64,000 nt of DNA, taken from contig NC_135222.1 in assembly GCF_052324685.1 (NCBI RefSeq), positions 16,946,373 through 17,010,372 of the forward strand. Reading direction: 5' to 3'. Origin of the DNA: Brachyhypopomus gauderio (lineage: Eukaryota > Chordata > Actinopteri > Gymnotiformes > Hypopomidae). The position numbers and the translations under genes are program-made. The first letter of the stretch is position 1. The number at the start of each line of letters is the position of its first letter. Below the pieces are notes generated by a model. That model had not been told where the DNA came from. It searched no databases and saw nothing but the letters and a program-made list of their open reading frames with translations. Below, one piece after another: positions 33 through 56,315 of the stretch.

Positions 33-9403
<9,371 letters not shown>

Positions 9404-9453
9404 TTGATCTTCAGGAAACCGAACAATACACATGGATGTGCTGAGCGTCTCAG

Positions 9454-9459
9454 AATAAA
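9454..9459 (+). terminator. mark1 poly(A) signal candidate
   Basis: AATAAA 51 bases after the mark1 stop codon. It is very close to the stop, so longer 3' UTRs ending at later signals are possible. Confidence 0.5.
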
Positions 9460-9911
9460 GCGAGTGTAGTCGTCATGGTGATGTCTACACTCTCAGCGAG
9501 TGTGGTCGTTATGGCGATGTCTACACTCAGTGAGTTTGGCTGCCATTTTGAGTTTACTGCTTTGTGGGGCTCCTGCTGTATTGTTTGCTCAGTGGCAGGT
9601 TTAATAACGGGTTTAATAACAGGTTTAATAACAGGTTTAAACCCCCTTCCTACTACTGCAGTCTCTCTTTGCTCACAAATCACATACACTGAGATAGTAT
9701 CTCCATTTTTGCAATAATATGCGATGTGAAGGTTAGCAGATTGGATTTCCTTTGGCAAGGTTTCGGAGACTTGCAATGCTACTTTTTCCACATGTACAGA
9801 TTCAGGGTGTTTTGTTGACTTGTTCATAGAGTTGTATAATACGAGACTCTTTCAGTCTTCGTATCTGAAGATGTTGTATAGTCTTGAGTTCTGTATAGGA
9901 TGTTCACGTTA

Positions 9912-9996
<85 letters not shown>

Positions 9997-11393
9997 CGTG
10001 TGTATATGGGCGTGCCTGTGTATGTGCGTGCGTGCATGTGTCTCTCATGTTGATGCTTAGTCCTTTGCTTTCCCCATGTTTTTAGTTTTATTTTGCCTCC
10101 ACCAGGTCATATGACATTTTAATTATTGATTTTTTTTTTTCTCACAGGCATTTCTTCTCCCCTTTAAGCAGGTGTGGCTGTAACCCTGTGTGTGGGGCTG
10201 AATAACAGTGTTTTGTAGAGCGCATCCCAAAGGCTTCCTGGTATTAACCTCCAGCTTGTTTGACATTTTTTTCATTCTTTTCATGCAAGCAAAGAAAAGT
10301 CCAGTCACTAAATTGTGGTGTTAGTAAGTGTAACGGTGAATATTATGACTTTGGTAGTGGTTAAAGTGGTGATGCTGTAAACAGCCTGAACAGGAGCAGA
10401 CATGACTGAGATGGCCTGACCTTCTCTCTCTTATTTCAGTTTACGCCTTTAATGTGCTGCACTGCAGATCCTGCTCAGAATGTCGCCCAGATGCAAATGA
10501 AAGGTGTAGGGTGTAGGATGCTTCTGTTTTTGAAGATGTTCTTTCATTTTGTTTCTTCTGTAGTTGATGGTGGTGGAGATGCTGATGTTGTGTGAGGCCA
10601 CTTATGCTGGGAGGGTTCTGCACGTTTTCCACTGAGATGATGAGGGTTAAACGTGCAGCTCGTGTTGTTACTCTAATTCTGACAGAAGAAAAGGTCCACA
10701 ATTGCACGTGCTCAAAGGAAAGCTAAGGAAAGCTTTTGTTTAGTGTCCTTTTAAAAAAAATAGTGTTTCTCAAGAGGAGTAAGGAGGTTTGAGGTGTGAT
10801 GGAGCAGGTGGAGGTGCTGTGCTCCGTGCTGTAGTGTTACATTTCCTGAGTCTTCAGGGCAGCCTCAGTGGAGGAAGCAGCTCAGAGGGGGTGTGAAGAA
10901 AACAGGATTTCCTTGAAACACAAATACCCTTTCTACACCTAACAAGTCTGTTTCCACACACACATACACACCTTCCTCTAAACGTAGTACTGTACATTAA
11001 AAAAAAAGAATCAGTCTCACAGGTGCACATTAAAGCTTTACTTGAAAAGAAATGTTTGAGCCACAGCCTGATGTCTTTCTTTACTTTAACCCCTAACCTC
11101 TAACACCGAACCCTTCAAATCACCTTCATGTGATTTACTACACATCTTGCTGGAACCCTACAGACATGCGCACAGGAAACACGGAAGCAGTTCTGAGTCT
11201 CTTCTACGTTCCAAAAACAAAAATAAACATCTCGCACAGTGCAAACAATGATCCACACCAGCATTTAAAAGCATTTAACAGTGTTAAGAAGTCTGGGTTA
11301 GGCTTGTTTATGTTTTGTAGCATTAACAGCACTTTTGATGCCTGGAGGGGTTTCACAGGTCACCCTGGTAATGAGCCTCCAGATTGGGCACTC
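9460..11393. other. Intergenic stretch between converging mark1 and creatine-kinase-like genes
   Basis: Holds likely 3' UTR sequence of both genes, a four-fold repeat of AGGTTTAATAAC (9598-9642), a long GT microsatellite (9915-9992), and otherwise unremarkable AT-rich DNA. No exon with conserved coding was recognised. Confidence 0.6.
9915..9992. repeat. (GT)n microsatellite
   Basis: About 38 uninterrupted GT units, with a degenerate GTGC extension to about 10040. Confidence 0.95.
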
Positions 11394-13315
11394 TCATTTC
11401 TGTGCAGGAACGAGGTCGTCGATGCATCCACCCGTCTCCAGCCTCTTCTCCATCCTGATCAGAAGCTTCACCCCATCCACCACCAGCTGGGTCACCTCTA
11501 CTTCTGTCAGTCCAATAGTCTGCAGGTTGCTTATTTTATACATCTCAGGCAGGTCTATGTATAGAGACATTCCACAAGTTTAGTATGTCAGGTTGAAGGC
11601 AGTGTTTTCTAATGGTAGTATGTCAGGTTGAAGGCAGTGTTTTCTAATGGTAGTATGTCAGGTTGAAGGCAGTGTTTACTAATGGTCTAATGGTAGTATG
11701 TCAGGTTGAAGGCAGTGTTTACTAATGGTCTAATGGTAGTATGTCAGGTTGAAGGCAGTGTTTACTAATGGTCTAATGGTAGTATGTCAGGTTGAAGGCA
11801 GTGTTTTCTAATGGTCTAATGGTAGTATGTCAGGTTGAAGGCAGTGTTTTCTAATGGTCTAATGGTAGTATCATATCAGGTTGAAGGGCTGTTCCATACC
11901 TGCCATCTCCATGCGTAGCCGCAGTCTGTCCAGGATGCTGTCCCGGCGCCCATGTGCGTACACATGCTGGAGCCTGGCAGTGATGCTGGCCTTCATACCT
12001 GTGCCCAGCTCCGCAGGTGAGCTCACCAGCCAGCCCAGGTGAGGCTTCCATACGAATGGGTGCCTCAGCCTCTTATAGAGTGCCTCCACCTGGAGGAAAT
12101 GATGAATCTAAGAGTGTAGTGGCATTCTGGAGCCCATTCGCGCACACTGTACAAGACAAAAAGACAATCACGCAGTGCAGCTGGACGATGGCTCGGTAGT
12201 GTCGCACCTTCAGGATGTTGATGCAGACAGCTGCAAAGGCCTCCTGGATATTGGCATCGTTTCTGGACGACACCAATCTCAGATGGTCCTCCATGTTGAA
12301 CCAAATGGCCAGAGTTCCATCCTCACTCACCCTGTAAGACAAATCAAGGTCAAACTGCCTGTAAACCTTGGTTATCTGTACCTGTGTCTGGACATGTAGA
12401 TTGATTATTAACACCATCTTGGCTAAAGGACACCTTAAGTAAAGCATTTGACCTCACAGAGAAGGCTTATATACATCACATCCAGAGATGTTGTGCACCA
12501 CCCAGTTTTACTACAGTGTTCTATAGTGAAGTGACCTTAGATTTATTCATCTATCTATTGCTCTTCAATTATAGACCATATGCAGTGAATATTTCCATAG
12601 CGTGGGTTAACCCTCACTTCTGGGAATCCATCACTGTAGTGTTTTGTTACTATTGGTTAAAGCAGTGTCATTAGCTCATGTCAACGAGTGAGTCATTTAT
12701 TGAGTGCTTGATCTTGTAGACTTAGGTGAGCACCAATCTCAGCACCAGGGACCTCCAGTGTGACTGATTTATCCCATATCATGAGCATCTGGTGAGTTTT
12801 ACCACAAGGCTCTTGCATCAGGCCAATCACGGCTCACACCACTCTTCATTAACAAAGGAGATGGGGCGTCCATAACGATTCCTTTATCCTTCATCTCTTC
12901 ATTGAGCTCCTCCATGGAGTAAAGTTTGCCTGGGAACTCCTTACCAAGTTCATTCAGAGCTGGTAAATGAGCAATTTCAGATTAATTATTCAAATTATGT
13001 TCAAATAATAAGAATCTTTGTCATATGTAAAGGAGAATGCTGTTAAACAGACCTTTTTATCCAGTATCCCATCATGCACTATATCCCATCATTAACTATA
13101 TGACTGTCATTATAACAGCTGGACACTTCAGGCCTTCAGCTCAGTGTACTGAGTAGTGAAGCGAGTGCATTTAGTGCAGTACCTTCTTTAGCCAGTGTGA
13201 GGAGCTCTCTCCGTTCTCCTCTACTAATATGTGTGGGGAAGCAGTAGTCCTCTACACAGCGGGCAGCACTCACCTCACAACTTACTGCATAGGTGTGGTC
13301 AAAGTCATCCCCTCC

Positions 13316-13349
<34 letters not shown>

Positions 13350-15067
13350 TGTGATTCAGCAGTCATTTGGAAATCCTGATAATCTACATGTGAAAATCTG
13401 AATAATTAACACTCACCTTCAGGTTGTCATAATTGAAGTCACTCTGTTGAATAATTTGAGGGTCGACTTTGTAGCTGTGATAGGCTTCAATAATGCGCTC
13501 AAAAAAGGCACAGAAGAGAATGTAGGATTGGGCATCTCCAGCTAAACAACCCACCATCAAGGGCCCTGCACGTGTTCCTGTGTCACACAACAACGCACAC
13601 TTCAAGGAGAAGACGTGGAGGAATGTGGAACATGAATACTGCAGTTTTGCAGTTGTTTTATTAGCACTTGTGTTGGAGGACATGAACGTTTCGAGTGAGA
13701 GCAGAAAGGTGAGAATGAGGGATCAGAGAGGTGAGAATGAGGGAGCAGAGAGGTGAGAATGAGGGAGCAGAGAGATGAGAATGAGGGAGCAGAGAGGTGA
13801 GAATGAGGGAGCAGAGAGATGAGAATGAGGGAGCAGAGAGATGAGAATGAGGGAGCAGAGAGGTGAGAATGAGGGAGCAGAGAGGTGAGAATGAGGGAGC
13901 AGAGAGATGAGAATGAGGGAGCAGAGAGGTGAGAATGAGGGAGCAGAGAGATGAGAATGAGGGAGCAGAGAGGTGAGAATGAGGGAGCAGAGAGATGAGA
14001 ATGAGGGAGCAGAGAGATGAGAATGAGGGAGCAGAGAGGTGAGAATGAAGGAGCAGAGAGGTGAGAATGAGGGAGCAGAGAGATGAGAATGAGGGAGCAG
14101 AGAGGTGAGAATGAGGGAGCAGAGAGATGAGAATGAGGGAGCAGAGAGGTGAGAATGAAGGAGCAGAGAGGTGAGAATGAGGGAGCAGAGAGATGAGAAT
14201 GAGGGAGCAGAGAGATGAGAATGAGGGAGCAGAGAGGTGAGAATGAAGGAGCAGAGAGGTGAGAATGAGGGAGCAGAGGTGAGAATGAGGGAGCAGAGAG
14301 ATGAGAATGAGGGAGCAGAGAGGTGAGAATGAAGGAGCAGAGAGGTGAGAATGAGGGAGCAGAGGTGAGAATGAGGGAGCAGAGAGATGAGAATGAGGGA
14401 GCAGAGAGGTGAGAATGAAGGAGCAGAGAGGTGAGAATGAGGGAGCAGAGAGATGAGAATGAGGGAGCAGAGAGATGAGAATGAGGGAGCAGAGAGGTGA
14501 GAGTGAGAGAGCAGAGAGGTGAGAGAGAGTGAGTGAGCAGAGAGAAGCTGTAATAGATGTGTTATGAGTTATCCACTCCATAACACGAGGAGCATTTTAT
14601 CTTTGGCAGAATTGTGTGCCTTTTTTCTCTGATGCCTTGAGACACTAGAGTTGCATGTTGGTACACATTATAAATCAATGCACTTTCTGGGCAACAAACA
14701 AGAGTTATACATAAAAAACAACCTTAAGCTGCTCTGCTAGTTTTTATTACTATGATTTGAAAAAAAATCTGTTTTTCATTTAAACTTTTGATAATTTTGA
14801 TAAGACTAGGTCACCAAGTATTATTCTCTGCAGGTCAGTAAAATTCAGTTTAACAGACAGAAGCATCTCACCTGGGTCTTCTAGCCCTGGACGAATGATG
14901 TCATCGAAGATGACCCCGCTCTCAGTAGCACGGTTAAATTGGCGGGTGTACATGTGCAGGTCTAGGACTTGTGCCATACAGGTGTAATTCCCATCTAAAC
15001 TGGGGAACTCTTCTTTGGGTGAGCCCCTCTTGAGCCTTAGCCTGGTCATTGGGTCTGGTGGTACCAT
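11394..15067 (-). CDS. Creatine-kinase-family protein, predicted catalytically inactive (7 coding exons)
   Basis: Phosphagen kinase fold (ATP:guanido phosphotransferase). Exons in reading order: 14872-15067, 13417-13565, 13183-13315, 12803-12959, 12208-12331, 11900-12089, 11394-11554. They total 1,110 nt, an unbroken 369-residue frame with all phases matching and the intron layout of CKB. Conserved parts: [93 protein letters not shown] and the terminal PAQK. Active-site residues are changed (muscle/brain CK numbering): Cys283 is Ser ([10 protein letters not shown]), Arg130 is Glu and Arg132 is Ser (SCEVSAARC for SSRVRTGRS), Arg292 is Lys, His296 is Thr, Glu231 is Met, His66 is deleted, and the Arg320 region is replaced. 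Glu232, Arg236 and Trp228 remain. I infer a pseudoenzyme under protein-level constraint. It lies tail-to-tail with mark1 and head-to-tail with traf5. No standard gene symbol was assigned. Confidence 0.9.
11580..11875. repeat. AT-rich minisatellite next to a CK-like exon
   Basis: Seven copies of a 38-49 base unit containing GTATGTCAGGTTGAAGGCAG and one or two TCTAATGG modules. On the minus strand it begins about ten bases after the donor of the exon 11900-12089; a diverged first unit (TCAGGTTGAAGGG) overlaps that donor flank. Confidence 0.9.
13317..13348. repeat. (AC)n microsatellite
   Basis: On the minus strand this GT run ends in GTGTAG, the acceptor of the CK-like exon 13183-13315. Confidence 0.9.
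13690..14545. repeat. 22-bp purine-rich minisatellite in the CK-like gene's first intron
   Basis: About 39 copies of a 22-base unit, GAGAATGAGGGAGCAGAGAG plus GT or AT. Units alternate GGT / GAT and some have AAGG for AGGG, giving interspersed variants and 17-base deletions at 14277 and 14362. Because 22 is not a multiple of 3 and the complement has no stop, it produces a long open minus-strand frame that is not a gene. Confidence 0.95.
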
Positions 15068-16543
15068 GCTCTACAAGAAACATTGTGTCATGATAAGATT
15101 GAGACATCAAACCACATCACAGTGTGATTCAGGGACTACAGCCCTCTTGCTGTTTTAACTACCATTACAAAGGGTCGTCCAGCCTGCCATTTAGTGAACC
15201 ACTCCATCCTCAAAGGTGTCGAGAACGGTAAGATAGCAGAGGGGGCAGAAGTTAATGTAGTATCATAATGACTGCAACGATAACACTGCCTAGCCTGCTC
15301 TGTGATTTTTTTTTTCTTTTTCCTGTTTTTGTTTGCTGATGCAGACCACGGCAAGGGACTTTCCTCATTTCACGGTGTGAAAGTGTCTGCTGTGTTTTTG
15401 TGGAGGGGAATACCTCAAGCAAAGACTTGTACCTTGTCTCCATGGGGTGGTCTGCAGGAGCTAAAAGAGATGTGTACCGTTAGCGACAGCTGCCATGCTA
15501 CATTTAAGGGAATTAAATGCCCTCAAATGCCTTAATTGGGCAGGTTTTTAAAGTTCGGCTCTCTACTCCACACCATAATACATCAAATGAAAGAATGAAC
15601 ATAAGGTAAAGTGTGGACTATGTCCACGTTCATTCAAAGGCATTTACGGTTGCATGCAGCTTGTGTACCAAGAACTTCAATGCCAAGCATAACAACGGAG
15701 ACATGCAGGAGACACTTACGCCTGATTACCCACGCGTCCTTTCTCTTCCACATCCTCGTTAGCTGTGGTGTCTGATTCTCGTGTACGTATGTGGAGTAGA
15801 CTTTGCACAGAGAGGAGTGAAGCACTGTAGCTCATGACAGCTGGTCTTTATGCTGGAGAGGAGAGCTAACAATAGTCTGGGGGTCTATGCACCCACACTC
15901 CACCTCCTTTGTACAAAGCCTGGCAGAGTTCACATTGGTGTCATGTTGTTGGGCTGTAATAATGAGTCTATTTTTGACAGCCACGTCATGTTTTATTTGT
16001 GTGCTGGGGGTATGTGCAGTTAGCATTGTTGTGGAAGGGCAGTTTGCTTTGTATACATTTCTGGCTGCAACAGTCTTGAATCAGTTCGGAGGTCTTGGAG
16101 GAAATGGCAAAGTCACATTTAGAAACTGTAGGTTACAGCTCATATTTACCTGTGTGTGTGTGATTCATTCCACTGTTCCATTTGCATCATGCATATGTAT
16201 AACAGAATGTTTGAGTCACCTCACAGATGTGTGTATGCACCAGATGTGAAGACTCGCAGGTTTCTAATGCTATGGTTTCTCACTTCTGAAGATCTAGTGT
16301 TACAGGAGTGCTGGGAACAGCCTCGCACAGGTTAACCAGCACAAGTTTTTTTTTATTTGAACAAAACACAGAATGCCATTTTGTAACATCATGTATAAAA
16401 ATACAAGTCTTGCTTAGAAGATGTACACAGTTCCAGTGTCCTGCCTTGAGGCATCAGCAATTTCTTCACTTCAGTAATTTCTTGGTTTGTTAAGTATAAT
16501 GTTCATGTCCATGTTCCAGCTGCCCAGAAGGCTCTACACATCT
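15068..16543. other. Intergenic stretch upstream of the CK-like gene
   Basis: Contains the 5' flank of the CK-like gene and the 3' UTR of traf5 (minus strand). A T-rich stretch lies at 15307-15330. No conserved coding segment or transposon was recognised. Confidence 0.55.
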
Positions 16544-19028
16544 CTACACGTCGTCCAGTCCTGTGGTGTCCACCTTAACCTTAATGAACAGCGTGTCATC
16601 TCTCACATAAACAGCATTCCGGGGAGCCTCCAGGTCGTGGTGGGAGATGAAGCGTGGGAAGCCCAGGGCCGGGTTGGCGTCGGACGTGGGCCTGCGGAAC
16701 CTCTCGTTGGCAGCGTCGGGGGTGAAGCTGTGGTTGATATGGTTTCGGCAGCCGCTCTGGTCCAGCACGGTGAGCGTGACGTTCTGATGGAATGGCCACG
16801 GCAGCAGTGAGTCAAAGTCCCCCCTCATCACCATCACGTAGAGGGACAGATGCGTGCCCTGAGCCATGCCCTCGCCGCCTAGATACACCCGAACACTTAG
16901 CTTGTAGCCACTGCGGCTGGTGTAGAATGGCGGCGAGTTGAGGGGCGTGCCTGCTTCCTTCTTACGGTGGTAGTCGTGCACTTTCCAAATGAGCTTGCCG
17001 TCGTACGAGGTGGACTCCAGCTGACGGAAGCGCTGCTCGGTACACTGCAGCTGTTCCACGTGGATGTCGAGCAGACGAGCGTGACGCTGACACGTCTGTC
17101 CCAACACGCCTGCAGGGTCACACACACACACACACACATTAAATTGTCAATTTCATCTAGTTTTTAATAACATTTGGGCTTTGACATGTCCAGACGCTCA
17201 TTCCAGTGCAAATCTGGAAAGCATGTTAACAATGATACTGTATGTTGCTTCAAGACACATGTACTTTACGTCCTGTCCTCACCCAGGTGATCTCTCAGGC
17301 TTTGTGTCATTGCCACCTGCTGTCTGAGAGAGTCCAGCGAAACCCGAAGAGCTGTGAGGTCTTCTTTAGCCAGTTCCGCCTCCAGAACCCCCCGCAGGCC
17401 CTGCAGGTCCTGCTTGACGCTGGAGACATGTTCTCTCTGTTCCTCCACTGACCTCTACAACACAAACATACGTCTCAACAGTCTAGGCTTCACCTTGTGC
17501 TTTAGACTCTTCCATTTCACTTAACAGTTACGACATCAGGGCTTTCGAAACAGCAGCAGTCTCATCACAATTATGCACTTTTCTTGCAAACTATTGCAGT
17601 CTGGATTTTCACCATAGCACTGAAACTGTGCTAACTAATGTAATGATCTCTTAATGTCTGATAAAGGATACATATCTTTTCTTGTCGTTTCACACCATCG
17701 GCCACAACATCTTAGTGGATCGGCTGGGAACACTGGTGTTGGAGGATGAGCATCCTGGTTCACATCTTATCTGACTAACCATTAACAATTTGTCCTCATA
17801 CATAATGATTGCTCTGGGTTCTCAAAGGTAAAATATGGCATCCCACAAGGGTCAATACTGGGTCCCATATTGCACTCATTATCCACAAAAGCCATGATTG
17901 CTATAGTTATCATTACATTTGCTACCGTTAGCTTACAGTGTTTTGTAAGCATACTATTAGCTACCATTGTCATGGGGATGATACTATTATGGGGAATTCA
18001 TCTAATGTACTAAATCTTGATGGCTTTTCAGTAACAACCAAAACTAAAAAAAAGCATTTTTTATGATCTTTTGTTGGACACTCGTACTGTTCCTAAAACT
18101 GCCTTTTTCCATTTACATAATATTTCTAAACATTTTCATCAGATGCAGAGAAACTGGTCCATACTTTTATCAATTCAATATGGTTTTATTTCAGTTGTCT
18201 CCGAATTGGATGCTCTAAAAAGTCACTAAATAGACTCCAACTTGTACAGAACATAACCAAACCAGCATAACCAAGAGTCATAATCAAACCAACATAACCA
18301 AACCAGCATAACCAAGAGTCATAATCAAACCAACATAACCAGCATAACCAAGAGTCATAACCAAAGCTAGATTGTTGAATCACATTGGTCTGTTCTTTCT
18401 GTACATTTCAAATTGACCTTAAATTTCTCTTGACGACATGTAAAGCGCTGAATGTTTTGGTCCCGCAGTATCTGAGTGAACCCACTGTATACTAGAACGC
18501 ACCCACTGCTCTCTCTACAGGCAGGGTTCTCCTAGTCCCTAAAATGAGTAAGGTTAAAGGTTACAGCTGTGGGTGGAGCCTTTTCCTTCCCCTTTAAAGT
18601 AATGGAAAAGCATTCAGGCTTTAATCTGAAACAGACACACACATTTTAATTCCAGACTAAAGACGTACTAAGATTTACTCAAGCTTTTAGTTAGCCTCCT
18701 GTAGGTGACGGCGTGGAGCCTGGGGACTCCAGCAGTAGAGTGTTCTGCTAGAGATGTTGAGATGTTGATCCTGTCTGGCTACTTCACTTGTTCAGTGGGG
18801 TTTATAACGGTGCCAGTGGTTGGCGCCAGAGCGAACTAGTAACTCATTGAATCATAGATGTGGATCAGAGGTAAATAAACTAGATTTTTTTAGATATTTT
18901 TTGAGATATCGGAAGTGTGGCGTGAGAGCATGTGAAAACGGTCAAATGCGTGTGTCTCACGCTCAATGCGTGAGAGTTGGCAACCCTGCAGTTGGTATAG
19001 CGTGTTTTGGCATCATACCAAGCCCATG

Positions 19029-25012: not shown

Positions 25013-26895
25013 TCAGTGCAGAGAGGAGGCGGGGTTTTCGGGCTGGATGCCCACCAGCGTGGGCGGCTGCTGGCCCAGAGTGGGGGTGGGAGTGGCCCCT
25101 GCAGCGGGGGCAGGGCGGGGGTTGAGGCGTGGGGGGAGGGGGTTGGAGGGCCGGATGAGGGGGGGCGGCTGGTTGAGAGACGGCCTAGGCTGCAGGAAGC
25201 GGGCCTGCTGCTGGAGGGGAGGGGGCTGTCTGTGCAGGGCGGGCGTGGCCGGCAGAGAGGGGCGGAGCAGAGGCGGAGGCTGGTTCAAAGATGCGGTGCC
25301 ACCCAGAGCGGAAATGCCCGAGGACGATACAGCAACAGGAGACGGTCCTGGTGCGGGGGTGACCTGGCCCTGCAGAACACCAGGGGGTTTTATTACTGGT
25401 CTTACAGACACAGAACACACTTGACACATTAACATGTATCCATAACCATGTATCCATTAACGGTGTGAATTTCTCACCGTGAGTACAGTACATTACCTCT
25501 TCCTCCTCTTCATCTGTGCTCTTTCCTGAAGGGGTATTGGAGTTGTTCTTCCCCTCTTCACCAGAGGTGGCACTGTCCCCATTGGGGGCACGAGTTCCTT
25601 GCTCTGCCTCCCACTCCTGTAGCACCTCCTCCAGGTTGAAGCGCCGGCGGTAGTTCACAAAGAAGTTTTTAACCTGCCCCACTGTCTTATTACCAATCAC
25701 ATCTGCGATGGCCTGGAAGTCTTTTCCATACTTGCGTACACCTGCGTGACAACACCATGGAACTGAAGTTAGTACGACAACACAGATCTGATCTTACACT
25801 AGCGCTGTGGTCCCGCCCCCAACCATGTACACGCCCTGGTCACGCCCCCAACCATGTACATACCCTGGACCCGCCCCCAACCCTGTACATACCCTGGACC
25901 CGCCCCCAACCCTGTACATACCCTGGACAGCAAGGAGCTGCTCGTCTGTAGTCCAGCGGGCATTAACCTTTTGGTTGCACTGAAATAATGGGAATAGAAA
26001 ACATTATTCATAGAAAACATTATTTTGCCTGTGAGAACAAGGTGTTACATTTTTTAGTGCTGATTTATAAAACAAAAATGACAAAGCCTATAAACTTTGT
26101 ATTGAAACACTTCAGCCGTTTAAGTAGTTGGAAACTTTGGCATTCTGAAATACTACAAGACAAAGGAACTTTCTCCTGTGTTGTGTGTTCTACGTGCTGG
26201 TTCTCCTGATGTTGTAAACAGCTGAATTTGCATCAGTTCTGCTGCAAATCTATTACAGCCTAGATTATAAAATAATGTAATAAATCAAGTTTGGTCTGAA
26301 CTCTGCAGATAAACTGACTGTAATGATTTACCTCAGGCAGCCGGTAATCATCGATTCCAGATTCGATCCTCTGTTTAAGACCACTGTTCAACTGCTTCGC
26401 ATTTTGAACCTAATGGGGAAAACCACCACCACCACGTTTAATTATTTGATTCTGGATCAGCAGCACAGTCATTCTGGGGAACACTTCACAAACTGATCCA
26501 AGTCCATTGACCACTCTACAGTACGGTGGTTCAGCAGTCAAGCACATCAAGCCTCCAGAGAATCAGGACAATTTAGAGAGTAACCCCACCCCCAACATGC
26601 ACTACACACACCTCCTACACACAGACACACACTTTATCCCTGAAGGAGAGACTAAGCATCCTCAACTATGTTGTCTATTCTAAATCCAATTATCTTAATA
26701 GTTTTATCTTATTTACTTTACTTCTTATTATCTTATTTACTTAACCTTTTTTACTTTTTATGTTATTTTAATATTTTTATCTTTAATTTCTTTTAACATT
26801 TTCCTTTTGTCTTATCTCCATTTAATGTTTATTTTATTTATACTGTAAAGCACTTTGAGTTGCATGTATGTATGAAAGGTGCTATACAAATAAAG

Positions 26896-32083: not shown

Positions 32084-56315
<24,232 letters not shown>

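Follow-up and report, generated by a model that had tools for sequence, protein, structure and literature searches.

We analysed a 64,000-nucleotide stretch of Brachyhypopomus gauderio DNA (hereafter the window), located on contig C12 of this 796.5-Mb genome, which revealed a protein-coding creatine kinase (CK) paralog that has probably ceased to catalyze phosphoryl transfer and remains in the genome as a CK-fold protein. This explanation rests on an intact seven-exon gene, on changes at four of the five ATP-phosphate arginines, the Mg-ligand glutamate and the latch formed by His66 and the loop, and on coding constraint, as an average over the branch leading to the gene.

Gene Structure and Protein Family

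Human CKB, used as a tblastn query with a threshold of E < 1, gave seven ordered minus-strand matches across positions 11394-15067 (E 2.75e-6 to 3.96e-17), which bear out the positions of the seven exons proposed in the initial annotation of this DNA. Coding exon 1 (14872..15067, minus strand) begins with a start codon at 15067, matches human CKB and is followed by the donor GTGAGA; before it lies an acceptor-like site, TTCTTGTAG, which may point to an untranslated exon further upstream. It is followed on the same strand by exon 2 (13417..13577), which carries an altered His66 segment, exon 3 (13183..13315), which retains the interface motif SRGERR, exon 4 (12803..12959), which retains the motif RDWPDAR, exon 5 (12208..12331), exon 6 (11900..12089) and exon 7 with the stop codon (11394..11554), where the conserved C-terminus ends in PAQK. 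The spliced frame contains no internal stop and encodes 373 amino acids. An alternative acceptor of exon 2, located 12 nt downstream and in frame, reduces this exon to 13417-13565 and yields the 369-residue open frame of the initial annotation.

All six introns have GT-AG ends, and their positions and phases are those of CK introns, so that the gene has the coding-exon boundaries and phases of vertebrate CKB and CKM. The same six positions are found in the CKs of contigs C9, C15 and C57, and the CK of C16 is without one of them (the one separating exon 4 from exon 5; L009 3499-3794). Marks of a pseudogene, whether stops, frameshifts or broken splice sites, are absent from the coding model. The initial annotation had considered that the conserved Arg and Cys residues might lie in alternative exons; no exon with canonical residues was found among the 91 matches of eight CK queries to positions 9404-16400, 30 of which were off-exon or on the opposite strand, all with E >= 0.15. 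Two introns contain minisatellites, one in intron 1 (window 13699-14524; 22-bp unit, about 38 copies) and one in intron 6 (window 11581-11871; 43-bp unit, about seven copies).

The best PDB match of the spliced protein is human CKM (E 2.9e-93). Both the N- and C-terminal Pfam domains of the phosphagen (guanidino) kinase fold family score above their curated cut-offs, with 121.3 bits for PF00217 (cut-off 22.4) and 67.3 bits for PF02807 (cut-off 25.7), and these scores together with the PDB match exclude a chance resemblance to CK. The protein is 41.7% identical to human CKB and 39.1-41.5% identical to the remaining four cytosolic CKs encoded in this genome (C9, C15, C16 and C57), which share 78.7-86.8% identity with each other. 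When compared with eight CKs (two from human and six from this genome, of which four are cytosolic and two are stitched mitochondrial sequences), it retains 95 of their 199 invariant positions. A search for relatives in viral contigs gave four pattern matches, none of which was confirmed.

Selection on the Coding Frame

Differences from the CKB of C9 amount to 0.45, 0.33 and 0.65 at codon positions 1, 2 and 3, respectively. In a branch codon model of five genes and 368 codons, an omega of 1 was rejected on the branch of the window gene (2dlnL 53.6); in this untied form the synonymous length ran to its bound, and the branch omega was indistinguishable from the background (2dlnL 0.08). When the synonymous length of the branch was tied to the root-to-tip average of the other genes, omega was 0.27 against a background of 0.04, and both 1 (2dlnL 101.4) and the background value (2dlnL 274.5) were rejected. 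Because synonymous sites are saturated, the value of omega hinges on this clock assumption: halving to doubling the synonymous length moved it from 0.47 to 0.15, with 1 rejected throughout (2dlnL 28.6 to 234.1). Constraint averaged over the branch is therefore real, since the codon models reject an omega of 1, and it is probably relaxed, given that the tied omega exceeds the background. These results describe one sequence and the average over its branch, at the end of which constraint may have relaxed recently.

The alternative that survives best is that the gene is a very young pseudogene, long constrained, whose function was lost only recently, with stops and frameshifts yet to arise. The length of its amino-acid branch (1.70 substitutions per site), the minisatellites in two introns and the lack of a CK match beside the other copy of MARK1 (contig C1) would all fit such a history. 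We nevertheless consider it unlikely, because the frame of the CK gene, when evolved neutrally in simulation (1000 runs per point with an assumed 0.1 indels per substitution), stayed intact in 11.4% of runs at 0.02 and in 0.8% at 0.05 substitutions per site, and because the GT-AG ends are intact in all six introns.

Genomic Neighborhood and Origin

Genes in the window are arranged in the order MARK1, CK gene, TRAF5, RCOR3 and KCNH1. The end of MARK1, a C-terminal KA1 stretch (9107..9403, plus strand), is convergent with the CK gene, and 1990 bases separate their stop codons. This neighboring gene scores 491 bits against MARK1 in the PDB, compared with 471 for MARK2, 457 for MARK3 and 445 for MARK4. 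On the other side of the CK gene are open frames for the terminal TRAF-domain exon of TRAF5 (16547..17146, minus strand; 198 bits against TRAF5 and 174 against TRAF3) and a SANT-domain exon of RCOR3 (25188..25793, minus strand; 148 bits against RCOR3 and 96 against RCOR1), followed by two exons of KCNH1 (34996..43313, plus strand, within 34996-35562 and 42852-43313; 501 bits against KCNH1 and 489 against KCNH5). TRAF3 and MARK3 were considered as neighbors and dropped, as the PDB scores favor TRAF5 and MARK1. A receptor-kinase-like stretch upstream of MARK1 (C12 at about 16931021-16931245; L016) resembles PTK7. Between the two KCNH1 exons, at 37098-41019, are repetitive overlapping minus-strand open frames of up to 1300 amino acids, which look like a tandem repeat staying open by chance. 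TRAF-like stretches with identical scores occur at C16:22999434 and C110:37395 and are possibly a haplotype duplicate of the assembly. KCNH1-RCOR3-TRAF5 synteny is described as common to shark, mouse and human (PMC13398235).

This genome contains eight MARK genes that form four pairs, a number indicative of a teleost, namely MARK1 on C12 and C1, MARK2 on C14 and C18, MARK3 on C15 and C9, and MARK4 on C16 and C57, where the labels of C1, C14 and C18 were assigned by identity to short human pieces and that of C9 by exclusion. CK domains were identified on C12, C15, C9, C16 and C57, with mitochondrial-type domains on C3 and C11, and none was detected on C1, C14 or C18 (22 matches from 24 scored candidates). 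With the MARK neighbors identified by PDB score, the CKB gene of C15 and MARK3 converge at a distance of about 1.5 kb. The CKM gene of C16 and MARK4 converge at about 3 kb, and a KLC-like gene flanks this CKM on the opposite side. CKM on C57 faces MARK4 likewise, but the end of this MARK4 was not found, and about 14 kb lie between its identified parts and CKM. On C9, CKB is 440 kb from the MARK gene and in the same orientation, not convergent. In human, we take CKB to adjoin MARK3 and CKM to adjoin MARK4. No CK remnant was detected near the second MARK1 gene on C1, where the analysis covered L035 and 10 kb of L041; downstream of this gene (L041 4571-6541), where a CK would be expected, open frames resemble an LGI-type gene. 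Two further features of the genome's CKs were noted: in the CKB on C15, part of coding exon 1 is repeated as a frame-broken second copy that lies ahead of exon 2 (L011 4-121), and the CKM on C16 has Phe at CKB position 218.

The window gene thus lies in a MARK-linked paralogon that parallels those of CKB and CKM. Because MARK1 is the neighbor here, MARK3 accompanies CKB (C15) and MARK4 accompanies CKM (C16 and C57), the window gene is most simply explained as a third cytosolic CK that arose, like CKB and CKM, in the genome doublings of early vertebrates. A CK-MARK pair would predate these doublings and would have given rise to CKB with MARK3, CKM with MARK4 and the window gene with MARK1, and one of the two copies of the latter from the teleost duplication would survive. 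The initial annotation had recognized a paralog, which stands, and gave no origin for it; the MARK1/TRAF5 neighborhood points to an early-vertebrate ohnolog. This linkage would mean that early vertebrates possessed at least three cytosolic CK genes.

In the protein tree, the window gene is placed on a branch of 1.70 substitutions per site beside the CKM group (modest support, 72/83), and the mitochondrial outgroup falls among the CKBs with low support. Of seven topologies, the one that sets the window gene apart from both the CKB and the CKM clade has the best likelihood, and none of the seven was rejected by the AU test (p 0.083 to 0.75). Among those not rejected are placements inside fish CKB (p 0.193) or CKM (p 0.083 and 0.085), as would follow if a lineage-specific fish duplicate of either gene had inserted next to MARK1 and subsequently evolved rapidly. 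We regard such an event as very unlikely: it needs a chance insertion that kept all introns and came to lie convergent to a MARK gene like the CKB on C15 and the CKM on C16, and, of the two CKM placements, one is excluded by bootstrap RELL and one by the expected-likelihood weights.

Changes in the Active Site

Among 14 published active-site residues (CKB numbering), all of which are present in each of the eight comparison CKs, the window protein retains three (E232, D233 and R236) and has changed H66, R130, R132, E231, R292, Q318, R320, V325, D326, D335 and R341; R292K and D326E are conservative changes, and residues 320-326 are beside an alignment gap. Further changes were identified at H191 (exon 4), S285 and N286. 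The 27 positions compared are canonical in the four other cytosolic CKs of the genome. R236, encoded in exon 5, is the only intact member of the arginines contacting the ATP phosphates (CKB 130, 132, 236, 292 and 320), with R130E and R132S encoded in exon 3 and Lys at 292 in exon 6. In the acidic catalytic cluster E231-E232-D233, exon 5 encodes Met instead of E231 and leaves the other two residues intact. The reactive Cys is replaced (C283S, exon 6), His66 is absent, and the 323-332 loop, at the junction of exons 6 and 7, is about six residues shorter.

Several of these losses had been proposed in the initial annotation, and C283S, R130E, R132S, R292K (conservative), H296T (exon 6) and the loss of R320 are all seen in the CK alignment, as are the retained W228, E232 and R236. 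The shortening of the His66 segment that it also described depends on the acceptor of exon 2, because the upstream acceptor makes this segment one residue longer; His66 itself is absent either way. We also compared a further list of 23 CK ligand residues, 22 of which are invariant in the eight CKs. Six of these 22 are retained, compared with 89 of the 177 other invariant positions (p 0.045), which is weaker evidence than the 14 published residues, and residue 69 is kept in this comparison and changed in the other alignment.

In human mitochondrial CK, the arginines of the ATP site, the acidic cluster and the loop latch have been identified in a mutagenesis study (PMC5133464). For human uMtCK, this study reports that E226A and R127A (CKB E231 and R132) abolish activity, that R315A, D321A and R287A (CKB R320, D326 and R292) leave 2%, 4% and 10% residual activity, respectively, and that alanine at the equivalents of CKB R130 and H66 leaves 30% and 26% (PMC5133464). 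All five positions with the strongest effects (CKB E231, R132, R320, D326 and R292) are changed in the window protein. Because the active-site changes include residues with published inactivating mutants, together with C283S and the shortened loop, CK catalysis is very likely lost in this protein. That the active site was instead remodelled for a new reaction or substrate, in line with the retained W228, E232, D233 and R236 and with the mild nature of the Cys283 to Ser change, is slightly less probable still than a lineage-specific duplicate, since an ATP-dependent phosphagen kinase would be expected to require R130, R132, R292, R320 and the E231 that binds Mg, all of which are changed.

Dimer Interface and Possible Function

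Seven charged residues of the CK dimer interface are named in PMC4754747. Five of the seven are identical in the window protein, D62E is conservative and K156T affects a site that also varies among active CKs. Retention at the interface (5/7) exceeds that in the active site (3/14) with borderline significance (Fisher p 0.056). The CK N-terminus is described in PMC12467219 as meeting its partner at the dimer axis and helping to build the dimer, and this part of the interface is replaced in the window protein. It is thus plausible that the protein dimerizes like CK.

A catalytically dead CK-fold protein of this kind would fold and dimerize like CK and would act by binding through its retained dimer face. 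Such binding would most likely take place in a homodimer or with a CKB or CKM partner, in which case the dead subunit may tune or place active subunits. The initial annotation had suggested a non-enzymatic role such as binding. The loss of catalysis that it proposed for this undamaged frame draws support from the residue changes, from published mutagenesis at the same positions and from the codon model. Its suggestion of pairing with active CKs fits the five interface charges, although the borderline Fisher value and the replaced N-terminal part weaken it. We put forward only tentatively that a fifth vertebrate CK lineage of the early doublings, in addition to CKB, CKM, CKMT1 and CKMT2, may survive in fishes as a conserved dead subunit that heterodimerizes with CKB or CKM and controls the place or strength of the active enzyme. 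With a dead-enzyme CK paralog that has been kept intact, non-catalytic roles of CK could be tested in a natural setting.

Comparison With Known Systems

The creatine kinase family is described in PMC12630352 as comprising four genes: CKM, CKB, CKMT1 and CKMT2. A full-text literature search, with most subscription journals outside its coverage, showed among the matches listed no inactive or MARK1-linked CK and no described pseudoenzyme within the creatine kinases. The proposed MARK1-linked origin of the window gene is new here, and fish orthologs may already be present in gene databases under automatic names.

A phosphagen-kinase relative that works in complex with a non-kinase partner is found in the protein-arginine kinase system McsA/McsB, according to PMC12467219. 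Different from the window protein, McsA is a zinc-finger protein and not a dead kinase paralog, and the system is bacterial, so that the likeness is by analogy alone (PMC12467219). CKB and CKM are the closest systems: the window protein shares with them both phosphagen-kinase Pfam domains, the coding-exon boundaries, the C-terminal PAQK, a convergent MARK neighbor and five of the seven published interface charges. It differs from them in its low identity (39-42%), in the change of 11 of the 14 published active-site residues, in its shortened substrate loop and in its replaced N-terminus. Pseudoenzymes such as pseudokinases combine a conserved fold family and an intact gene with lost catalytic residues, and the window gene resembles them in each of these respects.
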